DNA from: Fibrobacter sp. UWP2
GTDB taxonomy: Bacteria; Fibrobacterota; Fibrobacteria; Fibrobacterales; Fibrobacteraceae
Direction of reading: 5' to 3'
Length of the DNA: 64,000 nucleotides
NCBI RefSeq assembly: GCF_900141705.1
Contig: NZ_FQYM01000005.1
Span: 62,001 to 126,000 of the forward strand
The notes under the pieces were generated by a model, which worked only from the letters and a program-made list of their open reading frames with translations, did not search any database and was not told the origin of the DNA. A program made the position numbers and the translations under genes. Below, one piece after another: positions 6,151 to 41,118 of this stretch; position 1 is the first letter of the stretch, and every line of letters starts with the position of its first letter.

Positions 6151-7173
6151 TTGTTCGGTCTTTTTTCTTGCGATATCGGTATTGATCTTGGCACGGCGAA
6201 CACTTTGGTCCACGTAGCCGGCCAGGGCATTGTCATTAACGAACCTACGGTGATTGCTGTGGACAGCAAGAACAACCGTGTTTCTGCCATTGGCTTTGAA
6301 GCCAAGAAGATGCTTGGCCGTACGCCCGGCGAAGTCCGTGCCGTGCGCCCCATGCGCGATGGCGTGATTGCCGATTTTGAATTGGTGGAAACCCTCCTCC
6401 AGACATTTATCAAGCGCGTGCAAAAATACCCGCTGTGGATGGTGAAACCTCGTGTGGTGGTTGGCGTGCCCAGCGGCATTACCGAAGTCGAAAAGCGTGC
6501 CGTGATTGACGCGGCCCGCCAGGCCGGTGCGAAGGAAGTTCACCTAGTACATGAACCGATGGCTGCTGCCGTTGGTATGGGCATCCCTGTCGAAGACCCC
6601 GTGGGTAACATGATTGTCGACATCGGTGGCGGCACTTCCGATATCGCCGTGATTGCATTGAACGGTACGGTCTGCAACGCTTCAGTTCGTGTAGGTGGCG
6701 ACGAGATGGACGACGCGATTGTGCGTTACCTCCGTACGATGTACAACCTCCAGGTGGGCGAGAGCACTGCCGAACAGATCAAGATCCAGATTGGTTCTGC
6801 TAGCCCGCTCGACGAAGAATTGACGATGGAAGTGAAGGGCCACGACTTTATTGCGGGAATGCCTCGCACGATGACCATCAAGAGCGAAGAAATTCGCGAA
6901 GCCCTGAACGAACCTGTAACGGCGATTATCGAGGCTGTGAAACAGGCTCTCAGCATGACTCCGGCCGAACTCTCTGCCGATATTTACGACAAGGGTATCA
7001 TCATGACCGGTGGAGCTTCGCAGTTGCGCGGTTTTGATGAACGCATCCGCAAGGAGACGGGTCTTTCGGTGAACGTGATTGACGACGCCCTGGTTTGTGT
7101 TTGCAAGGGTGCAGCTCGCATTCTCGAAGACCTTGACAAGTATCGTCCTGTTTTGATCGCTTCTTCTAACTAG
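6151..7173 (+). CDS. mreB: Rod shape-determining protein MreB
   Basis: MreB is the bacterial actin that organises elongasome wall synthesis under the inner membrane. The 340-residue product has the actin phosphate-1 motif DIGIDLGTANTLV near the N-terminus, the phosphate-2 motif VDIGGGTSDIAVIAL at about 155-170 and the adenosine motif MTGGASQLRGFD at about 285. Length is normal for the family. The start is a TTG at 6151 just before FGLFSCDIGIDLG; no in-frame ATG exists at the correct place, and GGG at 6141-6143 is the only ribosome-site candidate. It heads mreB-mreC-mreD-mrdA-rodA. Confidence 0.95.
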   Translation: MFGLFSCDIGIDLGTANTLVHVAGQGIVINEPTVIAVDSKNNRVSAIGFEAKKMLGRTPGEVRAVRPMRDGVIADFELVETLLQTFIKRVQKYPLWMVKPRVVVGVPSGITEVEKRAVIDAARQAGAKEVHLVHEPMAAAVGMGIPVEDPVGNMIVDIGGGTSDIAVIALNGTVCNASVRVGGDEMDDAIVRYLRTMYNLQVGESTAEQIKIQIGSASPLDEELTMEVKGHDFIAGMPRTMTIKSEEIREALNEPVTAIIEAVKQALSMTPAELSADIYDKGIIMTGGASQLRGFDERIRKETGLSVNVIDDALVCVCKGAARILEDLDKYRPVLIASSN

Positions 7174-7196
7174 CACAAACACCATACCGCAGTTCG

Positions 7197-8024
7197 ATGC
7201 TTAGGGCTTTCCGCTTTATTGTCGACTTGTTTACGCAAAGGCACGGTATTGTTGCCTTTGTGTTCTTCTTGCTGGTCGGTCTTTTGATGAGGCAGGCTCC
7301 CGACATCGTGAAAAACAGCATTGTCTCTACGGTATTGGGAACCGTGTTTTACCCTGCGCAAATGGTGATTTCGTCGGTGGACGCCTTCCGTTCTGTGGCT
7401 GCCGAAAACGAACACCTTAAAGAAGAAAACGCAAGGCTCCGCCAAGAGACTTACTATGCGAGCGAGGGATTGCAAGAATTGGCCCGACTCCACACCTTGG
7501 TCCGTTTTGACGACAAGTGGGATTACCCGATTGTGACGGCACGTGTGGTAGGGCACAATGCGGGGCGTTTTTTGACGACGCTTGTGATTAACCGTGGTAC
7601 GCGGCACGGCGTTAAAGAGAATATGCCGGTTTTCTCGATGAATGGCCTGGTTGGCAAAATCACCAAGGCGTCGTATGCGCATTCACGAGTGCAGCTGCTG
7701 GTGGACCCGAACCTTAAGTTGTCTGTACTTGAACGCAGGACGCGTGTGGTTGGCTTCTTGGAATCGGTGGATGGCCATTTGCTTACGGCGATGGTCCCGA
7801 CGCATGCAGGCGTCAAGGAAGGCGACACGCTCATCACCTCTGGCCTGGGCGGCATTTTTCCCAAGGGTATCCCTGTGGGTACGGTAAAGGCGGTTCGCGA
7901 ATCGGACCTCGATGTGATGCGCCTTATGGATGTGGCTCCGTTCCAAGAGTTTTCGACGCTTGAAGAAGTCTTTGTGATGGAAAAGGATCCCGAGTGGATT
8001 ATCCAGGAGTTGTTGGATGAATAA
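7197..8024 (+). CDS. mreC: Rod shape-determining protein MreC
   Basis: A 275-residue bitopic inner-membrane protein: one membrane helix at about residues 17-37, a periplasmic coiled coil at about 65-95 (SVAAENEHLKEENARLRQE) and the MreC beta domain, with VGKITKASYAHSRVQLLVDP and GLGGIFPKGIPVGTV. It links MreB filaments to PBP2/RodA. The start codon lies 23 bp after mreB and the 3' end overlaps mreD by 8 bp, consistent with coupled translation. Confidence 0.94.
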   Translation: MLRAFRFIVDLFTQRHGIVAFVFFLLVGLLMRQAPDIVKNSIVSTVLGTVFYPAQMVISSVDAFRSVAAENEHLKEENARLRQETYYASEGLQELARLHTLVRFDDKWDYPIVTARVVGHNAGRFLTTLVINRGTRHGVKENMPVFSMNGLVGKITKASYAHSRVQLLVDPNLKLSVLERRTRVVGFLESVDGHLLTAMVPTHAGVKEGDTLITSGLGGIFPKGIPVGTVKAVRESDLDVMRLMDVAPFQEFSTLEEVFVMEKDPEWIIQELLDE

Positions 8025-24624: not shown

Positions 24625-25745
24625 TCGAGTATAGACTAAATGGCCCTGTTTCCCAGGAACGTCAGCGGATCCGCCTGATGTCGGCGCTCCGTGAAAACCG
24701 GTTCCCGCAGGCCATTCTCATTGACGGCCCGGTGGGCATTGGCAAAAAGGCGCTCGCCATTGAGCTCGCCAAGGCGCTGCAGTGCTCCGACCCCAACGTG
24801 CGCCCGTGTGGTCATTGCTTTGGTTGCAAAATGGCGGCCGACGTGGGCGTGACTGACAGCTGGGTTGTGCCCATGGAAGCCAAGGAAGCCGGGGCCCGAA
24901 ACGCCAGTGACGTCTCTGCCGGCAGCACCGCCAAGACGGTCCAGGATTTTAAGCAGGCCTACATCGAAGAGATTTTTAAAAACCCCTATCGCATTGACAT
25001 CTTTAGTGCCGCCGCCGGGATTTCGGTTGAACTGATTCGCACCATGACGAACTCCTTTGTCCTCAAAGGGGACCGCGTGCGTGTGGTCATCGTTGCCGAG
25101 GCCGACCGCATGAACGAATCGGCGGCGAACGCCTTTTTAAAGACCTTGGAAGAAGTCCCGCCCGACACGTACTTTATTTTGACGACCTCGTCCCGTGAAA
25201 AAATGCTGCAGACTATCCGCAGCCGCTGCCTTGCGCTTCACTTGTTGCCGCTCAGTGACGACGAAGTTAAAAGCGAAACGCTCAGACTGTTGGGCGAAGA
25301 TGCCGACCCAAGCGACGTGACCGACGATGTGGTGGGCTTGGCTGTGGGATCCCCCGGTAAAGCGCTCTATTACGTGGAGCATGGCAAGGCGTGGTGCGAA
25401 CTGGCGGCAAAGTACCTCAAGCACTCCCTCAACAACGAGTACTACGAGGCGTTCAAGGAGCTGGGCGAGGCGGGCGTTGAGGAAGCTTCCGATGCAATGC
25501 GCTTTTTAGAAGTCCTTTCGTTCCTCATCTCGGATTTGTTGCGTCAGCAGTCGGGAGCCAAACTGCGCATCCCGGCGACGACGGCGCTTGTGAACATCGA
25601 TGCCTACCCGCGTGTGGATGCGTCGGCGTTGGACCGCGCCCTAGAAACGGTGCAAGAGACTCTGTCGCGCGTGGCGAGCCGCAGGACTGTCCCCACGATG
25701 CTGTTGCAGTCCCTTTCTATCAAGCTTTTTGAGGGCTCCAAATAA
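24621..25745 (+). CDS. holB: DNA polymerase III delta' subunit (HolB)
   Basis: A clamp-loader AAA+ protein of 374 residues. It has the P-loop GPVGIGKKAL at about residues 37-46, a Cys4 zinc site (CSDPNVRPCGHCFGC at about 55-69), the acidic EADRMNESAANAFLKTLEEVP region and the SRC motif (SRCLALH) of clamp loaders. An insertion of about 45 residues follows the zinc site. The ATG at 24621 overlaps the envC stop (ATGA) and is preferred to the in-frame 24606. The gene could also be annotated as a gamma/tau-like subunit, but the length fits delta'. Confidence 0.87.
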   Translation: MIEYRLNGPVSQERQRIRLMSALRENRFPQAILIDGPVGIGKKALAIELAKALQCSDPNVRPCGHCFGCKMAADVGVTDSWVVPMEAKEAGARNASDVSAGSTAKTVQDFKQAYIEEIFKNPYRIDIFSAAAGISVELIRTMTNSFVLKGDRVRVVIVAEADRMNESAANAFLKTLEEVPPDTYFILTTSSREKMLQTIRSRCLALHLLPLSDDEVKSETLRLLGEDADPSDVTDDVVGLAVGSPGKALYYVEHGKAWCELAAKYLKHSLNNEYYEAFKELGEAGVEEASDAMRFLEVLSFLISDLLRQQSGAKLRIPATTALVNIDAYPRVDASALDRALETVQETLSRVASRRTVPTMLLQSLSIKLFEGSK

Positions 25746-27433
25746 TGGAAGATCTGGTTGCATCCACGCTCTCGCAGGAACTCAAGATTCCGCACCTGGT
25801 GGCGCGATTCCTGGTTTCTCGCGGCATCAAGAATGTGGTGGATGCGAACCGTCTTTTGCACGGCTCCGAAGACGACGTGCTGGACCCGATGGGAATCCTT
25901 GGGATGGACAAGGCCATTGACTGGGTCTTGAATGTGCGCGACCTGCACCAGAAGGTCTTTATTTTTGGCGACTACGATTTGGACGGCATGACCTCGGTGA
26001 CGTTGTTGACTCGAGGTCTCAAGCACATTGGCATTGAATCGGAGTGGCGTCTCCCGAACCGCTTTGGCGACGGTTACGGACTTTCGCGTTCGGCTGTCGA
26101 CGAGATGTACGAGGCGGGGGCGCGCTACGTGATTACTGTCGATACCGGCATTACCGCCAACGACGAGATTGCCCATGCCAAGGAGCTGGGCATGGCCGTG
26201 ATGGTCATGGACCACCACCAGCCCAGCGGCGACGGGCTCCCGGTTAGCGATGTGTTGCTGGATCCGCACCAAGATGGCGACTCGTACGGGAATCCCGAAC
26301 TTTGCGGTGTGGGAGTCTCTTACAAGTTCATGTGTGCGCTTTACGCGAGGCTCGGTCTCCCTACGCCCACGCAGTACCTCGACCTAGTGGCTCTCGGTAC
26401 TTTGGCCGACTTGGTTCAAATGACCCCCGAGAACCGTTACTTTACCAAGTCGGGCCTGCGCCGCCTCCAAAAAAGCGAGTGGCCCGGAGTCCAGGCCATG
26501 TACGCGAGCCTCATGAAGCCCGGCAGCGCCGTGGGCGGTATTGACGTCATGTATAAAATCGCCCCGCTCCTTAACGCGCCCGGCCGCATGGAACGCCCCG
26601 ACCCGGCGCTCAAGCTGCTCCTTTGCGACAACAAGAGTGAAGCTCCGGCCCTGCTTGCCGAGCTCAAGAACTGGAACGCGAGCCGCAAGCAAAAAGAGGC
26701 CGAGATTACCGATATGGCCATGGAGCAGGTCAAAAAAGTTTACGGTGACAGGATTCCGACTGTGCTTGTGGTCGCCGGCGAAAAGTGGCACGTGGGCGTC
26801 ATCGGTATTGTGTCGGCGAAGCTCGCCCAGGTGTTTGACCGCCCGGCGGCAGTGCTCTCGGTGGACGACGGCATGGCGCACGCGAGCGCCCGCGCCGTTC
26901 CCGGCTTCAACTGGCACAAGGCCTTGTTCGAGAGCCGAGAACTGTTCGACCGCTGGGGCGGCCACCAAAACGCCGCGGGCTTCTCCCTCAGTGAAGACAA
27001 AATAACGGAGCTCCGCGAACGGCTCGAAAAGTCCGCCGCCGAGCAGGGCTACACAGGCGAGGCGCAACCCTGCGACGAGTCCCATTCCTTCGACATCCAG
27101 GTGGCACTCCGCGAACTGACGGTGGACGGATTCCCCGAGCGCACCGTGCTCGACTACTTTGACCTGATGGAACCCTTTGGAGGAAATTTCCCGTACCCCA
27201 CGTTCCGCGCCGAGAACGTGAAGGTCCACCGCATGCGCGAGCTCCGCGGCGGGCACCTGCAAATGGAAATTTCGCAGGGCGGGAGCCGCGTGTTCCCGGC
27301 AATCGGTTTTGGACTCCGCAAAAGCAAGTCCCACATTGGCGCCGACCACAAGGTCACCGTAATTTTTGAGCCTACCTGGAATTACTACAACGGCCGCAAG
27401 TCCATGCAGCTTTGCATCAAGGCCATCGAGTAA
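25745..27433 (+). CDS. recJ: Single-stranded-DNA exonuclease RecJ
   Basis: RecJ degrades 5' single-stranded DNA in recombination and mismatch repair. The 562-residue product has DHH-family motifs: FGDYDLDGMTS (about residues 74-84), VITVDTGITAND (about 130-141), MDHHQPSGD (about 157-165) and the DHHA1 region GGHQNAAGFSL (about 406-416). Its start overlaps the holB stop by one base. The tail has an OB-fold region ending LCIKAIE. Confidence 0.94.
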   Translation: MEDLVASTLSQELKIPHLVARFLVSRGIKNVVDANRLLHGSEDDVLDPMGILGMDKAIDWVLNVRDLHQKVFIFGDYDLDGMTSVTLLTRGLKHIGIESEWRLPNRFGDGYGLSRSAVDEMYEAGARYVITVDTGITANDEIAHAKELGMAVMVMDHHQPSGDGLPVSDVLLDPHQDGDSYGNPELCGVGVSYKFMCALYARLGLPTPTQYLDLVALGTLADLVQMTPENRYFTKSGLRRLQKSEWPGVQAMYASLMKPGSAVGGIDVMYKIAPLLNAPGRMERPDPALKLLLCDNKSEAPALLAELKNWNASRKQKEAEITDMAMEQVKKVYGDRIPTVLVVAGEKWHVGVIGIVSAKLAQVFDRPAAVLSVDDGMAHASARAVPGFNWHKALFESRELFDRWGGHQNAAGFSLSEDKITELRERLEKSAAEQGYTGEAQPCDESHSFDIQVALRELTVDGFPERTVLDYFDLMEPFGGNFPYPTFRAENVKVHRMRELRGGHLQMEISQGGSRVFPAIGFGLRKSKSHIGADHKVTVIFEPTWNYYNGRKSMQLCIKAIE

Positions 27434-28422: not shown

Positions 28423-28438
28423 AAAGCCTCGAAATTAA

Positions 28439-28521
<83 letters not shown>

Positions 28522-28575
28522 AGGTTGTGCGCCCCAAATATAGCAAAATGGTGGTTCCCGGGAATCGATTTTTGC

Positions 28576-29304: not shown

Positions 29305-29841
29305 ATGAAAAAAAATGGCACCCTGAAGGCGGGGTACACCCTTGTGGAAATGCTCACGGTCGTCGCGATCATGGGGATTCTTGCTGGTGTTGGGGTGTCG
29401 GGCTTTCAGACGGCTGTACAAAACGCGCGCATCAAGGACGCGGGCATCAACGTGACCGCCTTTATGGAGCGCGCCGCCAACACGACAACGCGGATGAATA
29501 CAACGTTGTGCGTGAAGGTCGAATCGGACAACAGGACGCTGAAGGCCTACAAGGGGGATTGTACCGGATCTGGGGACGAAGTCGTCGAGCAGATGTCGAT
29601 GGATCCGCCGAACAAGTTCCTCCCGTCGAGCGAGGGGACGTGCCCCGGAGACGTGGACCGCTATGCACAGAACAAGGTCGAGCTTGCTCCGAAAATAGGC
29701 GTGTCGCCGATTCCGGAGGGGTGCTTCATGGTGCGGTACGGAGGGACGGACCGTTTGATGGCTTCGGTAAAGGAGCAGACAAAGTTTTCGATGTCCTATA
29801 AGTTAAGTTACAATTCCGGCTCCAGCTGGGAAATTCGTTAG
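29305..29841 (+). CDS. Minor pseudopilin, GspH/FimT-like
   Basis: A 178-residue prepilin-like protein with a short basic leader and cleavage site KAG|YTLVEML, the conserved Glu at position +5, and one hydrophobic helix. A Shine-Dalgarno GGAGGAAAG precedes the ATG. It is the first of four pseudopilin genes whose order matches gspH-I-J-K. The mature C-terminal domain has several Cys and ends in SGSSWEIR. Confidence 0.85.
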   Translation: MKKNGTLKAGYTLVEMLTVVAIMGILAGVGVSGFQTAVQNARIKDAGINVTAFMERAANTTTRMNTTLCVKVESDNRTLKAYKGDCTGSGDEVVEQMSMDPPNKFLPSSEGTCPGDVDRYAQNKVELAPKIGVSPIPEGCFMVRYGGTDRLMASVKEQTKFSMSYKLSYNSGSSWEIR

Positions 29842-29849
29842 GCGGTGCT

Positions 29850-30320
29850 ATGGAAAAGCTCTTGAAAAACAAGAAGGGATTCGGGATAACGGAAGTGCTC
29901 ATTTCCGCTCTTGTCCTCGGCTTTTTGTATCTCGCGCTGTTGCACATGCAGGTTGGCAACCGCGAGGCGCTTTTGCGTATCCGCGGACGCGACGGCGCCA
30001 TCGAGGTCGCCCAGCAGGTGCTCGATTCGCTGAACCGCATCGGCATTGAATCGATTCCTTCGGCCCCGACTTCGTCGACGAGTTTCGAACTCGAGAAGAT
30101 TTCCCGTTCCTGGGAGAGGGGGACCAAGGTGGGCGGAGGAACGTCGACCATCGAGTACACCCCGACCGTGACAGTTGCTCCAACAAATGACTACACGGCG
30201 GCGGGCGAGTCGATATACGAGCCGGTGAGCCACGTGTATGCGAAACAGGTGAGTGTGCAGGTTTCGTGGCAGTTCAAGGGGTCCACGCAGTCCATCAACG
30301 TGTCTTCCGTAATTCGGTAG
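29850..30320 (+). CDS. Minor pseudopilin, GspI/PilV-like
   Basis: A 156-residue prepilin-like protein: KKG|FGITEVLISALVL, with Glu +5 and a membrane helix at about residues 10-30. It starts 8 bp after the GspH-like gene. The rest is a small beta domain with repeated WQFKGSTQSINV near the C-terminus. Confidence 0.82.
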   Translation: MEKLLKNKKGFGITEVLISALVLGFLYLALLHMQVGNREALLRIRGRDGAIEVAQQVLDSLNRIGIESIPSAPTSSTSFELEKISRSWERGTKVGGGTSTIEYTPTVTVAPTNDYTAAGESIYEPVSHVYAKQVSVQVSWQFKGSTQSINVSSVIR

Positions 30321-30330
30321 GCCGTTTTTG

Positions 30331-30395
30331 GCGCATAAATGCGCTCAAAATCACGTTTTTGCTGAAAAAAAATGCAAAATTTTGCGTGATTTGAG
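30331..30395. repeat. Nested inverted repeats between two pseudopilin genes
   Basis: GCGCATAAATGCGC (30331-30344) is a perfect hairpin with an AA loop. CTCAAAATCACG (30344-30355) pairs with CGTGATTTGAG (30385-30395) with one bulge, and GCAAAATTTTGC (30374-30385) is a perfect palindrome. A run of A follows at 30404-30412. It may be a processing or attenuation site that sets expression of the downstream genes. Confidence 0.6.
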
Positions 30396-30489
30396 CCGTT
30401 TTGAAAAAAAAAGTTTATTTTTCTAGATACGGAATGTGTAGGTATGCATCCCGTGTTTTTTCGCTATGCGCAACGTATATGAGGAAACG

Positions 30490-31839
30490 ATGAATCTGGC
30501 TGGTCGCAAACATATGTCGGGCTCCCGCAAGGCGGGCTTTACCCTCATGGAGCTGATGGTCTACATCGCCATCATGGGGATTGTCGTCATTGTGGCGGGG
30601 CAGGCGTTCAGTGATTCCACCAAGATGCGCATCCGTACGCAGAGCATGCTCAAGGCATCCGAAGTCGCCGAGAACGTGGCTGCAATAATGAAGGATGATC
30701 TTGCTCAGATGGGAGCGAAGAGCGCGATGAATTCCGCGAATGAATTCAGCGCTGTGTACAATGATGTCTATATGGACCCCGCAAATACCGCGGCGGATAA
30801 AGTTGATAAGTCGTCCTTCAAGCTGAACTCGGCGAGTGATTTGTCATTCCGACGAGTTCGGTATAGCGACAATGGAGTCTTTGTTTCCGTTGAAGAGGTC
30901 CGGTGGTGGCTGGATGGAAAAAAATTGAAAAGATCTTGCCGTACGGTGACTACCGAGACTACGATTGCCACAGATGACCCCTGCTCTGCCACCGACGTGG
31001 CTGGTGCAACGCAAAAAGCCGTCACCTATGCGGAAAACGTGGATTCCCTTTTATTTGTCATGGCGAAACCTTCTGTTACAGAGGATGCCGTTCAGTTGTT
31101 CCCACCTTCCAATGGTGACGAATTCATGCTTTTGCAGAGGGTAGATGAGCCAGCTCACTACCATATGATGAATGTAGAAAACAATGACAATATATCCACT
31201 TTATCTGGATTCGCGTACAACTATGAGGACAATGCGGCAACAAATGTAAATACCCCAGAAACTGCGGAACGAAATCAAGTCTATGTTGCCGAAAACAATA
31301 GTGACATTCTTCCGTGGAATACCGCTTGCACCAAGAAAAAAAACAAGTTCACGTTAAAGCCTCATGTGGTGTATGAACTTTCGTTCAGTTTGCCTTATAC
31401 GGGTGCCGATAACCAAGCCGATCCCGTACAAATGTTTGCTCCCGGTAGAGACCATATGTCAATCGGTTTCAGAAATAGCGACGGTACGATTCCTGCAGGC
31501 TGGAATGACTTCCTGTTCTACCCGTCAGTATCGTCAAATGCCAGCGAGAAAAGGACCATGCGCTTTAGTGTGGCGAACACCATTGAGGATGTCTGCATGG
31601 CATTTACATTCGTTAACTATCTCTCGGCAATCCATGATGGCAAGATAAAAATAAAGTCGCTGAAATTAAGACAACTTGCGACAGCAAACTACACTTTTGA
31701 TGATTGGTCGCCAGAATCGAGCATTCCCCAAAAAAAGAACGTAAAGGCGATGAAATTTATTTTGAAAACTAGCCAGAACGGCGAATCTGGCAGGGTGGAA
31801 ACTTTTGTCGCATTGCCTAGCAATGGACCCGAAGACTAA
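30490..31839 (+). CDS. Pseudopilin, GspJ/PilW-like
   Basis: A 449-residue prepilin-like protein with a basic leader, cleavage site KAG|FTLMELMVY and Glu +5, then a large beta-rich domain much longer than typical GspJ (about 200 residues). The ATG at 30490 has GAGGAAA at 30481-30487 and is preferred to the in-frame 30466. A 170-bp gap with inverted repeats separates it from the GspI-like gene. Its stop is 10 bp before the giant GspK-like gene. It is noticeably richer in Asn and Lys than the upstream genes. Confidence 0.8.
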   Translation: MNLAGRKHMSGSRKAGFTLMELMVYIAIMGIVVIVAGQAFSDSTKMRIRTQSMLKASEVAENVAAIMKDDLAQMGAKSAMNSANEFSAVYNDVYMDPANTAADKVDKSSFKLNSASDLSFRRVRYSDNGVFVSVEEVRWWLDGKKLKRSCRTVTTETTIATDDPCSATDVAGATQKAVTYAENVDSLLFVMAKPSVTEDAVQLFPPSNGDEFMLLQRVDEPAHYHMMNVENNDNISTLSGFAYNYEDNAATNVNTPETAERNQVYVAENNSDILPWNTACTKKKNKFTLKPHVVYELSFSLPYTGADNQADPVQMFAPGRDHMSIGFRNSDGTIPAGWNDFLFYPSVSSNASEKRTMRFSVANTIEDVCMAFTFVNYLSAIHDGKIKIKSLKLRQLATANYTFDDWSPESSIPQKKNVKAMKFILKTSQNGESGRVETFVALPSNGPED

Positions 31840-31849
31840 CGGAGGCTTT

Positions 31850-34800
31850 ATGAATATGTGGAACAAAAATGGTGTTTCACTTGTCACAGTGCTGCTATTC
31901 ATGTTGGTAGCAACTATTGCGGCCACAGCGACATTCAAGTGGCTTACGTCTGAAGGCCGTAGTTCTAGTTCGCGAATGCTGCAGCGAGAGGCGTACCAAA
32001 GTGCTATAGCCGGTATTGAGTCGGCGCGTTCTTGGATGACTTACCATGGCAATGACGTCGGGTCACTTATTAAGCAGTTCGAAGATAAACAGCTCAAAGA
32101 GGGGCATAGTGTACCTATTCTCTTGAATTCGCAGTTGACGGAACTCATTCGCCCGGGGCAGAACTTTAAGGTTTGGCTTGTTGGCGTGAACACATCCAAA
32201 TCTACGTACAAGTTAAAGTTGCTTTCAAAGGGCGAATCTAGAAATGGTTCGGCAAAACACAATGAACTTGCGATACTTAACGTCGATGGCCTATACCGAG
32301 TGAATATCCCGAAGGAAAAGGTTGTTAAAACGATTTCGTTTGAATACGACTATTATGGCGGATCCGTCGATGAAACTGCGGGTGGTATTAATGCGACTTC
32401 TATGGTAGTCAATGGAAACTGGACTGGAAACCCGACAGGTGTTAGTAAAAATTTCATTGTTACCGGGAATGCGACATTGACCGGTACCACCATTGTCGTC
32501 GGATCCGAAAATAACTGCATTGGCGGAGATTTTAAAGCGGAAAACGCCGGTGCCACGGGCGGCAACATATATGTGGGTGGTGATGGTACTGCGTTTAGCG
32601 GGAATTTTACGGGTAATGCCTACTTTGAAAACGAAGTCCAAATTGGTACTGGCGGAAATGGCCTTACTGTTACCAAAGATATGTACCTGGGCGACAAACT
32701 GACAATGAGGTCGCAAAAGGATATTAAAATCGATGGAAACCTTTGCCTTGGTGAAAATGCAACTGTGCAACTACATGAACATCTCGCGAATGCAACGGAA
32801 TTCAAGGTCAAAGGGAATCTTTGGATACCGCCTTCAAGTAGGGATTGGCTACTCCCTACTTCGACAAACAAAATTAATTTCAGTGATTACGATATCGACA
32901 ATGCCTCTAAAAGTGGATTTAAATTGTTTTTGGGTGAAAAAAAGCCGGGTATAGGTGCGGTGACGCCTAAAATCTATATGCCCAATGGGGTAAATTGTAG
33001 TTACAATAACAAATATTTTAAAGTGTACAAATCAACTGATGGCTCAGAACACAACATTGATATGGCGGACTATAATTTCGATAATGCATTCCAAGGTTGT
33101 GCTACATGGGTAGGACAAAAAGAAATCGGGTTCCAGGCTTGGGACAAAGGTGAGTATAATTCGGGTGAAAATTATTGTGTTGCTCCAGGAATTATGGGAA
33201 TGGGGTGTAGCTGGTCTGTCGAAAAAAAGTGGGATGTCTATAGCGACCATTGGATGATTTTTAGAACGACTGGTAATGTTGTCGGTTCATATACGGAAGA
33301 CAAGTTGGATTTCTCTTGCGGGGAATCTGCCAAGACCGCATGCAGCGACCTTTGGGAAGAAGGAACTGGTTGTAGTAATTCTAGTTATGTCGTTCCCGAT
33401 ATATTGAAGGCTGTGGATACGACTCTCCTTAAGCAGAGGGCGAACAGTGCTCAATGCATTGTTGATTTGTTGACCGGAGATGAAAACAACTTGAACAACA
33501 TGGACGTGACGGATTTGAACAATTGCTATTCTTCTTCTGCTGCGGATGAACTTTTCAATGGTTATCTAGTGATTAGCGATGACCAAGGGAAAATCGCAAA
33601 AATGTTGAGCAACCCGAGTGGGACGCTTAGGGGTAAATTCGTTTTTTATCCTAGATATAAACCAAGTTCGACTATTGCGCTACCACCGACGACGGCCGAT
33701 GCTTCCGTCCTAGTCTACCTCCCCGATGGTGCTTCAACAATCCAGCAATCGGGTTCCGGAGAACATTATAATTATTTCGTTTATTCTCTAAAAGACGTAG
33801 GCTCGCTTATGGGAAGCAACAAATGGACGGGCTCGTTCTATTTCCCGGTGAGCACCTGCGCACGTATTTCCAATATGCAAACGGCAGGAATGACGTTTGA
33901 GTCCAATTCAGACCTCATTGCGGATCTGACAAACGCCAGCCTCATATGCGACGTGAGTGTGGCCAAATGCGGATCGGGCTCGGGAGAGAGCGGCAGTAGT
34001 TCTTCAAGTGACCCGAGCAGTTCAGAAAGCTCAATAGATTTTGGCGGAGTAGACAGCTACTATATTTCGAATGCTCCACAGCTTTCAGTCTCGATAGAGT
34101 CCCAATACAAGAACAACGAGTCCGAGCCTTCCGGCAATGCAGAAAATAACGTGCAGGGTGACTTTATCGTTTTACCGAGGGTTATTTTTCTGCCGGCCGA
34201 TGCTCCGGGGCATCTCGATGATTACTACAACATTTTGCGGCTTAACAAGTATCCGGCATTCGAAAAAAGTGAAGGAGACGTCAGCTGTGATGCGGGTCTG
34301 CCTACTTCGGGCCTTTTGTCGGACCCCGCTAATCTTGCAACCGGCCAGTATCGCTGTACATACAGCTACAACAACAAGAATGTTAAGTTCTACGTTATCG
34401 TGAGCGGCCCCCAGGGCACGGACCCGCCCATCGGATTTAAAGAATCGTTCCATGAACTTGAAGCGACTGATTCCTATACTGTCAAACTGCACGTCCCTGC
34501 GCATGCAGCTACCTTGACGGTCAATTTCCAAAAACCCGATGATATCGATGATTGGAATGTTCAGCCTGCATCGGCTGCAGTTAATTGTGCAATGTCGCTA
34601 TGCAATGTTTCGATACCTTCTAACGCTTCTGAGCAAGACATCGACTTGTTCAATGTTACGACTTCGGGAGCCGAATCAGGCACGGCGATATTTACTCTCC
34701 GCCCAGGTGTCGGCTATAATGTTGGTGTTCCCGGCACGCTCACGCTCCAAATTCAGTCCAATCTGACGGTATACAGAGAAGAGGCAACTGCGGAACAATT

Positions 34801-37800
34801 GCAAGCGTATTGCGACGAGCACGACGGCTGCCCGGAAGATGTTTCCAAATGGCCTGAATGTCAGGATGTTGTAGAGCCCTGGGTGTTGATTTCGGGGTCG
34901 ATGTGCGTAACGAAGGAAGTCAACAATAGGTGGGTTTGCGCGACGGCGAGCGATATTAGCTTGAACGCCTCGGACAATGTTCCTGACGGTTGTATTTCGA
35001 TTGTACCCGATGAAGTCTTGCTGCAGAGTACATTGGTCAAAGGTGATGACCGCTATCTGCACGCAAGTTTAAAGGCTCAACAAATTCCATTCAGGTTTGG
35101 ATTTGCCGGCAAGGATGTCCCTAATGGCACAAAGATTTGGGCTACAGTCTCGCATTCTTCGTTGGCTAGTAGGAATGGCCTAAAGAAGGTGTGTACTTTC
35201 GGCACGGATGTTAAGGAGATTGGTGCAACTTGCACGCTAGATGTCTTCTCTGGTGAACGTGTGCGCCTTTCCTTTGATGATGATGATAACGACGAAAATG
35301 ATGCAAAGCCTACTGGTTTCCATTATTGGAGTTGTACCGGTGACAATTGCCCTGTGGACAATACGGATGCACCTCGCTTCGCTCCGTTTGCCATTAGTGC
35401 AGCCAACAATGCGGTATATGCGCACTTTAACGAGCTAGACAAGCATTGCTTCTTTGATGAGTTCAAAAAGGGAATGGACTGTACGGACGACGGATATTGC
35501 ATAGGCTATTCCGGAGAAAACGCAAAGTGGAACGTGATTGCGGAAAGCGGGTCCGACACTCCGCTTGATCGTCTTGAATATGGCGATGGCTACATCGCTC
35601 TCAAGTCCGGTGCTGCAAGAGGCGCCAACAAGCAGAACGTGACCCTTATGAGCACGGCTGTTGCAGGAACTAGGGGGTATCTCAAAGCTCAGTTCCGCCC
35701 ATCTCGATTGCTCACTGTTAATCAGGCAAGTCTACCGTCAACTGTCACGAATTCTGGATTCTTTATCCATGCCGATGAATCTGCCGGCAACGGCTTGTTC
35801 CTTACCATATACATTGATAAGGATTCCAAGGTTGTAGCTCGTTTACTTGACAACGCTGAACCGAAAAATGTATATGAAAAATTCTTGAAAAAAGATGGCA
35901 ACTCGCTGGTTATGCCTCAATCGGAGCCATTGATCACGTTGACGGTTGATGTGGTTGAAAATCGGCTAACAGTTTCTGTAATAAAGGAAAGGTACTATGG
36001 TGACCAGCCGGAAACCTACACGGCTGTTTTCGAATTGGAAAATTACTCACCGACTGGGGAATATGTCGGGCTGCGCTTGGCGGACCCGAGCATCAAGCTC
36101 TATGACATCGGCTGGAAAAGCGACACCTATTTTGCAGAATGTTGGGATACCTACCCGACTCTGAGCTGTTCTTTCAAGGGAACGTTCCCCGGGGCCGTAG
36201 TTCCCAAAGGCAAGGATGTTCTGCCTTGGGTTGGGCTTTCAAGCTGGTTTGACGCCAAGGGGTGCTATCGCAAATACTATTATCAAGGCGATGATGCCTG
36301 CAGTGCAGGAAACAGCGATTATAGTCCATGCTCGCCCTCCTATAATTTCTCGGAGACGGGTGCTCACGGATATACCCAGGATGGGGTCGAAATAAAAACT
36401 GCTCGAGCCGGAGTCGGCGACTGCTTCAACCTGGGCGATGAGAAGGACAAGTTCCTTGCTCAGTCGGAATGGGCTCATTGTGGGGCCTTCTGGGTTGGCG
36501 AACAGAAAGAGTGCAAAAAAACTGTAGATTTTTTGGGTGATATTGCATCTAGTGTTAGTTCCGCTGTTACCAACTTTAATTTAGTGACGGGAACTGCGAA
36601 CGTTCGTTCTTCTGACATCGTTGTTGAGTTGGAAGATAACAATGAACGTCGCCGCGTCGAAATTTACCTGTTGAGCCAAGAAGACATTGGCGCTCCTGTA
36701 CACTATAGCAAATCGGGCTATCTAACTTTTGAAGCGGGTGGCTCTAAGACAGCAAGCATCAAGGCCGAGGAACTGTTTGATGCGGATGGATTCAATCCTG
36801 AAAAGGTATACGGCATTGCGTTGCTGGTTCTGGAAGGGAGTGCTGTAAATGTCGACAAGCTCTATTCTTATTGCCCGAAAGCGCCTGTTTGCAAGGATAG
36901 TAAGGTGGAGTATATAGGAGACCATTGGCTTGTAACAACAAATTTGACAAATTATGTTAATACTGTCGGGACCTTTGTTGTGCAAGAGAATAACAACTAC
37001 ATAACTCCTGACTATACGTGCACGAATGATGGGTGCGATTATGAGGAGCTTGCATCTCCTACTAATACCGCAAAGTACAAATTCTCAATCGAGGATAATC
37101 CGTGGAGTGGACATGTAGGTGACACGTATAGGTTTACAGTAACGTTGACAACAAAGAGTGGAGACGAACTGAATTGTGGCCAAACAAACGAGAAGAAAAT
37201 TGATCCTGTTGCTATAAGTTGTCTTGGTCTTACGACTGACAACCCCGATAGGCTTGTTGGTGGAGGTCTTCCTCAGTTTAAGTACAAGGTGGGCAATTGC
37301 CCTCCGACCGGTTGCCCGTGGAAGATTACTCTCGAAAGGGGTGGAAACTGGGTGGCTGATATTACGAGCGGGACTGCAGCTACTGTTGGCACTGATGGTG
37401 TGAATACGGATTCTGACGCTGCAAATACGGAAGAAGATCCTTTGACGGCAGGGACTGGGTACTACTTTAAGTTGCAGCCTGTCACGGGCGATGATGCAAT
37501 CGACTTTGACCCCTGTGAGTCTGGCAAATTTGAAATCAAGGAAGTTGTCTCCAGTAGCAGTGAGCAGAGTAGCAGTTCTAGTGAAGAGAGTAGCAGCAGT
37601 GAAGAAGAAAGTAGCAGCTCTGTCGCTTCGAGCAGTAGTGCTGGGGGTGGATTCTCTTGCACTTACACAGGTACAACAGGTGTAAAAATCCAGGGAGGAG
37701 TCGGCAATCAAAATTTGACTTCGACAAACGCACCGCATGCACAATATGACCTGTACATTGATGGTGAAAAAAAGGTTTCCGGTACTTGGGGACTTGGATT

Positions 37801-38743
37801 CAATTTTACTACACCTACTTCGCTCGGCAACCATACCTATAAGGTTACTAAAATGGGAGAAACTGCTGCACAATGTCAGGGATCTTTTGAAGTGGTCGAC
37901 CCGTTGGAATGTAGTGTCGATGATGTAATTCCATTGAATGTTGCAAGTACATTTAGCGTGTCCGTGATGACTGGCTTTAGTTGCTCAAATTGCAATTACA
38001 CTAATGTTAATTGCGGATCCAGTTGTAACGGAGGGGGTGTAACCAATTACAACTTTACGCTAACAAACATGAATACAACAGAATTGAAGGTAAAATGTCA
38101 GTGCAACGACAACATCTATCAGACATGTACAAAATCTGTCAAAGCTGTTCGTACCGTACCGACGTTTAGTTGCAAAACGGGGCTGAAAGCCACCGTAGGT
38201 GAAACGAACAATGTGAAAATTGTTTTGCAGGGTGTCACTGGTTGTGATGAAAATAGCCCTTGGTGTCTCTCCAGCATTACGGGAGACGATATCAGCGTGC
38301 AAAATGGGATTAATGTAGGCGATGGTACGGTGAATCTTGGTGCCTTCACAGATACAGGAACTGATGGGGTAAGCAAGAGTTACACCGTCACTCTTGAAAA
38401 TTCTGCCGGCGTCAGTGCACCGAAAAATTGTAGTGTGGAGTTTGCCGCAGGTTCCAGCGGAACGACAATCGCAAGTGATGTTTGGGAATTCACTAATCCC
38501 AGTGGCACGGAATTTTGTTTTGATGAGCACCCCGTTCAATATGATTGGCAATCAAAAGCCCATATCAGATGTGAATCAGGCAATAATGCGAATGGTCATG
38601 TTACTTTAGATGGAACAGAAGCCTCGCATGGGTGGGAAACTGTAGAAATTACAGTTGATTTGGATGGAAATAAAAAGTACACAGGATGCCACACTGCATC
38701 TCGAAGAGATGGTGGCGATGTAAAATGTTACTTTGGATGGTAA
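31850..38743 (+). CDS. Giant GspK/PilX-like pseudopilin with adhesin-like domains (2,297 aa)
   Basis: The N-terminus is a prepilin leader KNG|VSLVTVLLFMLVATIAATATF; residue +5 is Thr, not Glu, as in tip-located GspK/PilX proteins. It is followed by a Gly/Asn-rich repeat region with beta-strand patterns (about residues 170-330), a Ser-rich linker (about 707-729), beta domains, and a LamG/concanavalin-like region (about 1200-1430, with YLKAQFRPSR and ending GLRLADPS). A second Ser/Glu linker lies at about 1901-1932, then Cys-rich Ig-like repeats to the end. GGAGG at 31841-31845 fixes the start. It is the last gene of the cluster. Typical GspK has about 300 residues, so the size points to an adhesin on a pseudopilus tip (inference). 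Confidence 0.8.
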   Translation: MNMWNKNGVSLVTVLLFMLVATIAATATFKWLTSEGRSSSSRMLQREAYQSAIAGIESARSWMTYHGNDVGSLIKQFEDKQLKEGHSVPILLNSQLTELIRPGQNFKVWLVGVNTSKSTYKLKLLSKGESRNGSAKHNELAILNVDGLYRVNIPKEKVVKTISFEYDYYGGSVDETAGGINATSMVVNGNWTGNPTGVSKNFIVTGNATLTGTTIVVGSENNCIGGDFKAENAGATGGNIYVGGDGTAFSGNFTGNAYFENEVQIGTGGNGLTVTKDMYLGDKLTMRSQKDIKIDGNLCLGENATVQLHEHLANATEFKVKGNLWIPPSSRDWLLPTSTNKINFSDYDIDNASKSGFKLFLGEKKPGIGAVTPKIYMPNGVNCSYNNKYFKVYKSTDGSEHNIDMADYNFDNAFQGCATWVGQKEIGFQAWDKGEYNSGENYCVAPGIMGMGCSWSVEKKWDVYSDHWMIFRTTGNVVGSYTEDKLDFSCGESAKTACSDLWEEGTGCSNSSYVVPDILKAVDTTLLKQRANSAQCIVDLLTGDENNLNNMDVTDLNNCYSSSAADELFNGYLVISDDQGKIAKMLSNPSGTLRGKFVFYPRYKPSSTIALPPTTADASVLVYLPDGASTIQQSGSGEHYNYFVYSLKDVGSLMGSNKWTGSFYFPVSTCARISNMQTAGMTFESNSDLIADLTNASLICDVSVAKCGSGSGESGSSSSSDPSSSESSIDFGGVDSYYISNAPQLSVSIESQYKNNESEPSGNAENNVQGDFIVLPRVIFLPADAPGHLDDYYNILRLNKYPAFEKSEGDVSCDAGLPTSGLLSDPANLATGQYRCTYSYNNKNVKFYVIVSGPQGTDPPIGFKESFHELEATDSYTVKLHVPAHAATLTVNFQKPDDIDDWNVQPASAAVNCAMSLCNVSIPSNASEQDIDLFNVTTSGAESGTAIFTLRPGVGYNVGVPGTLTLQIQSNLTVYREEATAEQLQAYCDEHDGCPEDVSKWPECQDVVEPWVLISGSMCVTKEVNNRWVCATASDISLNASDNVPDGCISIVPDEVLLQSTLVKGDDRYLHASLKAQQIPFRFGFAGKDVPNGTKIWATVSHSSLASRNGLKKVCTFGTDVKEIGATCTLDVFSGERVRLSFDDDDNDENDAKPTGFHYWSCTGDNCPVDNTDAPRFAPFAISAANNAVYAHFNELDKHCFFDEFKKGMDCTDDGYCIGYSGENAKWNVIAESGSDTPLDRLEYGDGYIALKSGAARGANKQNVTLMSTAVAGTRGYLKAQFRPSRLLTVNQASLPSTVTNSGFFIHADESAGNGLFLTIYIDKDSKVVARLLDNAEPKNVYEKFLKKDGNSLVMPQSEPLITLTVDVVENRLTVSVIKERYYGDQPETYTAVFELENYSPTGEYVGLRLADPSIKLYDIGWKSDTYFAECWDTYPTLSCSFKGTFPGAVVPKGKDVLPWVGLSSWFDAKGCYRKYYYQGDDACSAGNSDYSPCSPSYNFSETGAHGYTQDGVEIKTARAGVGDCFNLGDEKDKFLAQSEWAHCGAFWVGEQKECKKTVDFLGDIASSVSSAVTNFNLVTGTANVRSSDIVVELEDNNERRRVEIYLLSQEDIGAPVHYSKSGYLTFEAGGSKTASIKAEELFDADGFNPEKVYGIALLVLEGSAVNVDKLYSYCPKAPVCKDSKVEYIGDHWLVTTNLTNYVNTVGTFVVQENNNYITPDYTCTNDGCDYEELASPTNTAKYKFSIEDNPWSGHVGDTYRFTVTLTTKSGDELNCGQTNEKKIDPVAISCLGLTTDNPDRLVGGGLPQFKYKVGNCPPTGCPWKITLERGGNWVADITSGTAATVGTDGVNTDSDAANTEEDPLTAGTGYYFKLQPVTGDDAIDFDPCESGKFEIKEVVSSSSEQSSSSSEESSSSEEESSSSVASSSSAGGGFSCTYTGTTGVKIQGGVGNQNLTSTNAPHAQYDLYIDGEKKVSGTWGLGFNFTTPTSLGNHTYKVTKMGETAAQCQGSFEVVDPLECSVDDVIPLNVASTFSVSVMTGFSCSNCNYTNVNCGSSCNGGGVTNYNFTLTNMNTTELKVKCQCNDNIYQTCTKSVKAVRTVPTFSCKTGLKATVGETNNVKIVLQGVTGCDENSPWCLSSITGDDISVQNGINVGDGTVNLGAFTDTGTDGVSKSYTVTLENSAGVSAPKNCSVEFAAGSSGTTIASDVWEFTNPSGTEFCFDEHPVQYDWQSKAHIRCESGNNANGHVTLDGTEASHGWETVEITVDLDGNKKYTGCHTASRRDGGDVKCYFGW

Positions 38744-38760: not shown

Positions 38761-41118
<2,358 letters not shown>

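Follow-up and report, generated by a model that had tools for sequence, protein, structure and literature searches.

In the modular type IV pilins PilB and PilC of S. sanguinis, a functional module sits on a small N-terminal pilin and is presented at the tip of the filament (Raynaud et al. 2021, PMC8179133). GspK is discussed there as a modular pilin too, and the most extreme multidomain pilin given in that paper has 860 residues (PMC8179133). Exchangeable ends of a pilin are known from the PilV shufflon of the IncI plasmids R64 and TP114, which is made up of inverted partial open reading frames and a tyrosine recombinase (PMC9045228). Modular tip pilins and PilV shufflons are already known, and the system described here, built around a giant pilin termed K, is a variant of these.

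Fibrobacter is a gut bacterium known for the digestion of plant fibre, and an explanation of its hold on crystalline cellulose has long been sought. Pilins have been implicated in Fibrobacter attachment, yet the genome paper judged the set of pilus genes incomplete (PMC3079729). No description of giant K proteins or of inversion at the pilus tip in Fibrobacter was found in the open-access literature.

The window, a stretch of 64,000 nucleotides from Fibrobacter sp. UWP2, is part of contig C5 in a genome of 3.23 Mb. As a preliminary description had stated, it carries four prepilin genes in the order H-I-J-K (Table 1), each with a prepilin site (H, KAG/YTLVE; I, KKG/FGITE; J, KAG/FTLME; K, NKNG/VSLVT; the slash marks the cleavage site). 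The last gene indeed lacks Glu at position +5, which is Thr in the window and T, V, A or M in its relatives, and the unusual sizes noted earlier likewise hold, with J twice the usual length and K about seven times as long as a normal GspK (2,312 residues if translation starts at the alternative TTG at 31805). H and J score above the cut-off of the Pfam N_methyl family and I remains sub-threshold (14.3 bits, cut-off 21.2). K itself reaches 18.6 and 21.8 bits against PilX_N (cut-off 25.5) and, against the full-length GspK model NF037980, 15.9 and 19.1 bits, far under the cut-off of 130; the part matching this model, weakly, is confined to the N-terminal ~60 residues. At E<=0.01, PilX_N is matched by 10 of 24 K relatives (best 1.5e-6) and GspK by 14 of the 24.

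Table 1. Features of the H-I-J-K locus and its flanks, in nucleotide positions of the window
Feature	Position	Strand	Basis or remark
recJ	25745..27433	+	Syntenic left flank
tRNA-Leu(taa)	28438..28522	-	Upstream of the HIJK operon; kept at syntenic loci
H, GspH/FimT-like minor (pseudo)pilin, 178 aa	29305..29841	+	N_methyl 23.5 bits, above cut-off; GspH-type N-terminus
I, GspI/PilV-like minor (pseudo)pilin, 156 aa	29850..30320	+	Prepilin site; conserved gene order
J, GspJ-like minor pilin, double length, 457 aa	30466..31839	+	N_methyl above cut-off; constant partner of K
K, giant GspK/PilX-type pilin, 2,297 aa from ATG	31850..38743	+	No Glu at +5
K, predicted pilin module, mature residues 1 to ~159	31874..32350	+	AlphaFold model of the N-module
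K, predicted beta-solenoid region	32351..33961	+	AlphaFold, repeats mostly pLDDT >90; low-confidence stretch at model residues 402-464
K, first Ser-rich linker	33980..34033	+	Sequence; low pLDDT at model residues 710-727
K, middle module, predicted Ig/FnIII-like beta-sandwich chain	34037..37543	+	AlphaFold pLDDT 83; Foldseek; alignment of 66 sequences
K, second Ser-rich linker	37550..37639	+	Equivalent linker of L108/L209 bears the 61-nt inverted repeat
K, variable C-terminal module	37640..38740	+	91-1,194 aa in relatives
Junction GGAGTTTGCCGCAGGTTCC	38437..38455	+	Position, and with slight differences the sequence, shared with the inverted-repeat arm of G133 and G158
K, apparently exchanged C-terminal domain	38444..38743	+	Shares 93% identity with the inverted silent cassette of G133 and 79% with the C-terminus of L096
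Monomeric isocitrate dehydrogenase (IDH)	38890..41118	+	Syntenic right flank

This locus is not a chance arrangement, since the same four-gene order, the length of J (412-509 aa) and a giant K recur across the family. An initial search found K homologues in 24 of 25 genomes of the same genus, the query among them, and a profile of the K N-terminus extended this to 76 of 80 same-genus genomes and to about 95 genomes of the Fibrobacteraceae, with one to three, rarely four, matches per genome. The HIJK locus is near-universal in Fibrobacteraceae and often duplicated or divergent, with tandem J-K units in G018, G008 and G006 and divergent ones in G017, G021, G004 and G011. Most K reading frames in the family measure ~1,900-3,200 aa; outside it the matches are weak and fall mostly on the solenoid region, and the named matches are overwhelmingly from Fibrobacter. 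The tRNA-Leu(taa) gene is found upstream of HIJK at the syntenic loci L040, L041, L047 and L051.

The pairing of K with its double-length J, which can be read directly from the gene order, is constant as well. Of 76 K genes, 72 have such a J on their upstream side at a distance of 13-111 nt, and the four without one are located near contig starts. The two proteins also vary in concert (Mantel r 0.57; no permutation above 0.15), and the cognate partner was favoured in 12 of 14 comparisons within genomes. All 54 aligned J sequences match N_methyl and no further Pfam family, and a J profile search of the PDB returned pilin N-termini as the sole matches.

The AlphaFold models (mean pLDDT 81 for the N-module and 83 for the middle module) predict for the pilin module of K helices at 9-33 and 35-63 and strands at 103-143, in model numbering, from which mature residue numbers are obtained by subtracting 6. 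With a class III signal and this modelled pilin module fused to an additional module, K would qualify as a modular pilin. Foldseek gave nothing significant for the N-module (best E 0.06, an ice-binding protein), and the beta-solenoid region yielded weak FapA, MinC_C and ice-binding-like matches, each in single relatives. The middle module resembles Ig/FnIII/macroglobulin-type chains with E-values down to 4e-11 and low TM-scores. Profile searches of the PDB with alignments of the N- and middle modules produced no meaningful match, and no Pfam or NCBIfam domain beyond the N-terminus and no carbohydrate-binding family was found in K of the window. Of the domains that the preliminary description had assigned to K, the Ser linkers and the Cys-rich segments are present in the sequence. 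The LamG-like region, near 35450-36130 within the middle module, is not confirmed by Pfam, and the model has beta-sandwiches there.

Variability rises along the locus and along K. Compared with the syntenic recJ-HIJK-IDH locus of genome G021, the flanking proteins HolB, RecJ and IDH are 82, 87 and 89% identical, and the pilins I, H and J 68, 48 and 40%, respectively; identity falls to 38-43% in the N-module of K and to 27% in its middle module, and the C-terminal module has no match at the G021 locus. Likewise, between genomes that share 94-99% identity in the neighbouring transporter, J shares only 44-53%. The C-terminal 100 residues of 63 complete K proteins fall into 26 similarity families, and the nearest relative by middle module (>45% identity) belongs to the same C-terminal family for only 19 of 43 K. 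The distal module of K thus appears, from sequence comparison, to be exchanged between lineages. K of the window is itself a case in point: its C-terminal domain is close to that of L096 (Table 1), the middle modules of the two share 29% identity and the L096 protein is otherwise ~30-40% identical, and the junction at 38444 in the window is the same as that of G133. No second or silent copy of the C-terminal module was found elsewhere in its own genome, and no spare cassette, recombinase or Rpn gene near the K locus of the window. Behind K there is no room for a cassette, as IDH starts 147 nt after it. With a module in frame and a junction, and neither spare cassette nor nearby recombinase, this copy of K is probably locked.

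How would the end of K come to be exchanged? In three relatives (G133, L108/L209 and G158) a headless alternative C-terminus lies directly behind K, inverted and in frame, and is joined to K by inverted repeats. The cassette of G133 is an orphan frame on the opposite strand with a perfect repeat of 16 nt, that of L108/L209 comprises 514 codons with a perfect repeat of 61 nt in the Ser linker, and that of G158, whose genome is a single contig and belongs to another genus, has a repeat of 16 nt that resembles the one in G133; MAG contigs account for two of the three cases. Among 84 K 3' flanks, exact matches of at least 15 nt between K and the 2.5 kb downstream were inverted in six cases and direct in none, whereas at 13 nt there were nine inverted and 11 direct matches. 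Three of the six belong to the cassettes; the other three inverted matches, of 15-16 nt at L220, L202 and L185, were set aside as chance, their in-phase frames being just 13, 11 and 32 codons long. A dyad built from two of the cassettes, RGAACCT-N5-AGGTTCY, from which the third departs, is absent elsewhere in 2.7 Mb at zero mismatch, a descriptive result and not an independent test. The shufflon trait of inverted partial reading frames bounded by short repeats is seen in these three relatives and not in the window; the trait of a constant N-terminus combined with an exchangeable C-terminus in a type IV minor pilin is seen at the level of the family.

A candidate enzyme is encoded in some of the K clusters. 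Six of them (in G133, G017, G148 (L069), G100 (L083), G131 (L107) and G011) contain an intact-looking tyrosine recombinase that conserves the R, K, HxxR, H and Y residues, and in four of the six it lies between two divergent HIJK operons. At L061, L064, L069 and L056 the tyrosine recombinase stands between two complete divergent HIJK operons. Across five genomes the recombinases share 87-99% identity, compared with 44-53% for the J proteins. In G100 the recombinase belongs to one K cluster and the cassette to another; none was found near K in G158, and no serine recombinase lies nearby. Perfect inverted repeats also flank the recombinase (96 nt in G133; 69 and 40 nt in G011), where a switch at the level of promoter or operon is possible, but the repeats are in part accounted for by similarity between paralogous coding sequences. 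A gene of the Rpn family follows each of the three cassettes, and the Rpn genes directly behind K are mostly convergent with it (88 K 3' flanks, L133-L220). We tentatively suggest, at somewhat less than even odds, that in Fibrobacteraceae a recombinase drives a chromosomal switch of the distal module of K, that in species whose HIJK operons form a divergent pair it may also alternate whole tips and that Rpn nucleases beside K take part.

The same cassettes could instead be non-switching scars of replaced C-termini or past inversions, with the diversity of K arising from ordinary horizontal replacement. C-terminal remnants of K in direct orientation do occur behind its stop codon in L111/L200 and L113/L139, and most K genes have no cassette (present in only 3 of the 84 flanks). 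We nevertheless regard this explanation as rather doubtful, because in all three cassettes precisely the phase that inversion requires is an open frame (514, 99 and 85 codons), the repeats of 61 and 16 nt are perfect and the cluster of G133 retains an intact-looking recombinase. A different cause of the diversity would be phage predation, the tip being a phage receptor and the adjoining Rpn genes anti-phage toxin-antitoxin systems that share a hot spot with it and are unrelated to the exchange. Rpn proteins have been reported to act in anti-phage defence (PMC10327210), and of 88 K genes 26 are followed by an Rpn-like reading frame, which in 25 cases starts within 650 bp, as compared to a background of ~2 per Mb in ten genomes. 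Then again, a role in RecA-independent transfer has likewise been reported for Rpn (PMC5350276), which also adjoins all three cassettes. Predation is moreover compatible with an adhesin; as an account of its own we consider it unlikely.

That no secretin or ATPase gene is found near HIJK, as the preliminary description pointed out, is true of the window but misleading for the genome, in which pilB, pilC, pilT, pilMNO, pilQ and the gene for a prepilin peptidase lie on other contigs. Altogether the genome encodes PilB, PilC, PilT, a pilMNO-secretin (PilQ) cluster, one prepilin peptidase and three major pilins, and this machinery sits on other contigs or far off on the same one. A PilB-like ATPase at L031:4626-6572 carries an MshE-type c-di-GMP-binding domain, which hints at control of the pilus by c-di-GMP. 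The major-pilin locus L033 (contig C6 of the same genome, 6180-10751) contains two near-identical divergent pilins with an inverted repeat of 129 nt (99%) and, besides a third pilin, a frame at 7028-7381 that encodes a pilin C-terminus without its head and matches this third pilin at 52%. It also has a tyrosine recombinase and is possibly a second inversion or gene-conversion system. HIJK might of course belong to a type II secretion system and form its pseudopilus tip, where the giant K would help to recruit secreted enzymes or to push them out and would not act as a surface adhesin. Both the order of the genes and their N-terminal HMM matches are reminiscent of GspH-I-J-K, and the single PilC/GspF gene of the genome means that machines may be shared. 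Yet a second, separate secretin cluster (L030:7963-12300) already has its own GspK-like pilin of normal size (312 aa) along with I/J-like pilins, a variable string of 2,300 residues is hard to fit into a periplasmic pseudopilus, and the pattern of variability fits surface exposure, which makes a secretion role improbable. Since the genome has the genes for a type IVa pilus machine and the second secretin cluster has a GspK-like pilin of its own, HIJK more likely represents the tip set of a type IVa pilus than that of a type II secretion system.

Taken together, we favour, with a probability of roughly 0.6, the interpretation that HIJK is the tip complex of a type IVa pilus and K a modular tip adhesin with an exchanged distal module, shufflon-like in some species. 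H, I, J and K would form the initiating tip complex of the Fibrobacter pilus, with the cleaved N-terminal helix and pilin fold of K seated in the filament together with its partner J. The beta-solenoid and ~1,170 residues of beta-sandwich domains, folds that are predicted only, would serve as the stalk, and the hypervariable C-terminal module at the far end would be the binding part. In some relatives this module is probably swapped with a silent headless cassette behind K when the DNA between short inverted repeats is turned round, and the tyrosine recombinase encoded inside several K clusters is the likely enzyme; static sequence suggests that such inversion takes place in living cells. The fibre-tip adhesin of the preliminary description thus stands as far as the giant modular tip pilin is concerned, which is well supported by the modelled pilin module, the lack of Glu at +5, the obligate J, the beta-sandwich chain and the outward-rising hypervariability. 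We infer that K belongs to the pilus, is located at its tip and adheres to a ligand, and binding of the putative adhesin to the plant cell wall is, given the genus, only plausible.

With a near-universal giant tip pilin the search for an adhesin gains a concrete candidate, and the fixed J-K pair can serve as an assembly unit open to testing. The C-terminal switch, if true, would extend the logic of the shufflon from conjugative plasmids to a chromosomal pilus tip in a little-studied gut phylum, and would make it possible to compare ligands within naturally occurring sets of binding modules that replace one another.

The four prepilins share with GspH-I-J-K of type II secretion systems and FimU-PilV-PilW-PilX of type IVa pili their order, a last member without Glu at +5 and the partnership of J and K, but differ in the ~7-fold size of K, the ~2-fold size of J and the location outside a gsp or pil operon; K of the window, moreover, scores under the cut-offs of both GspK and PilX_N. 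Like the tip adhesin PilY1/PilC, K is a large modular putative adhesin presented by minor pilins. PilY1, however, is not a pilin, whereas K has its own prepilin sequence. With PilB and PilC of S. sanguinis (PMC8179133) K has in common the grafting of an extra module on an N-terminal pilin; unlike them it mostly comprises ~1,900-3,200 aa, contains no recognised Pfam module, lacks Glu at +5 and is accompanied by a fixed double-length J. The PilV shufflon, finally, is paralleled in the type IV minor pilin with constant N-terminus, the alternative C-termini kept, in three relatives, as inverted partial reading frames and, in six K clusters, the tyrosine recombinase. Different from PilV, the K system is chromosomal, concerns a GspK/PilX-type giant, usually has one spare cassette and a different site sequence and does not place its recombinase downstream of the cassettes; its inversion is proposed from static sequence. 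What is new here is how the end of K changes, through an apparently exchangeable C-terminal module.
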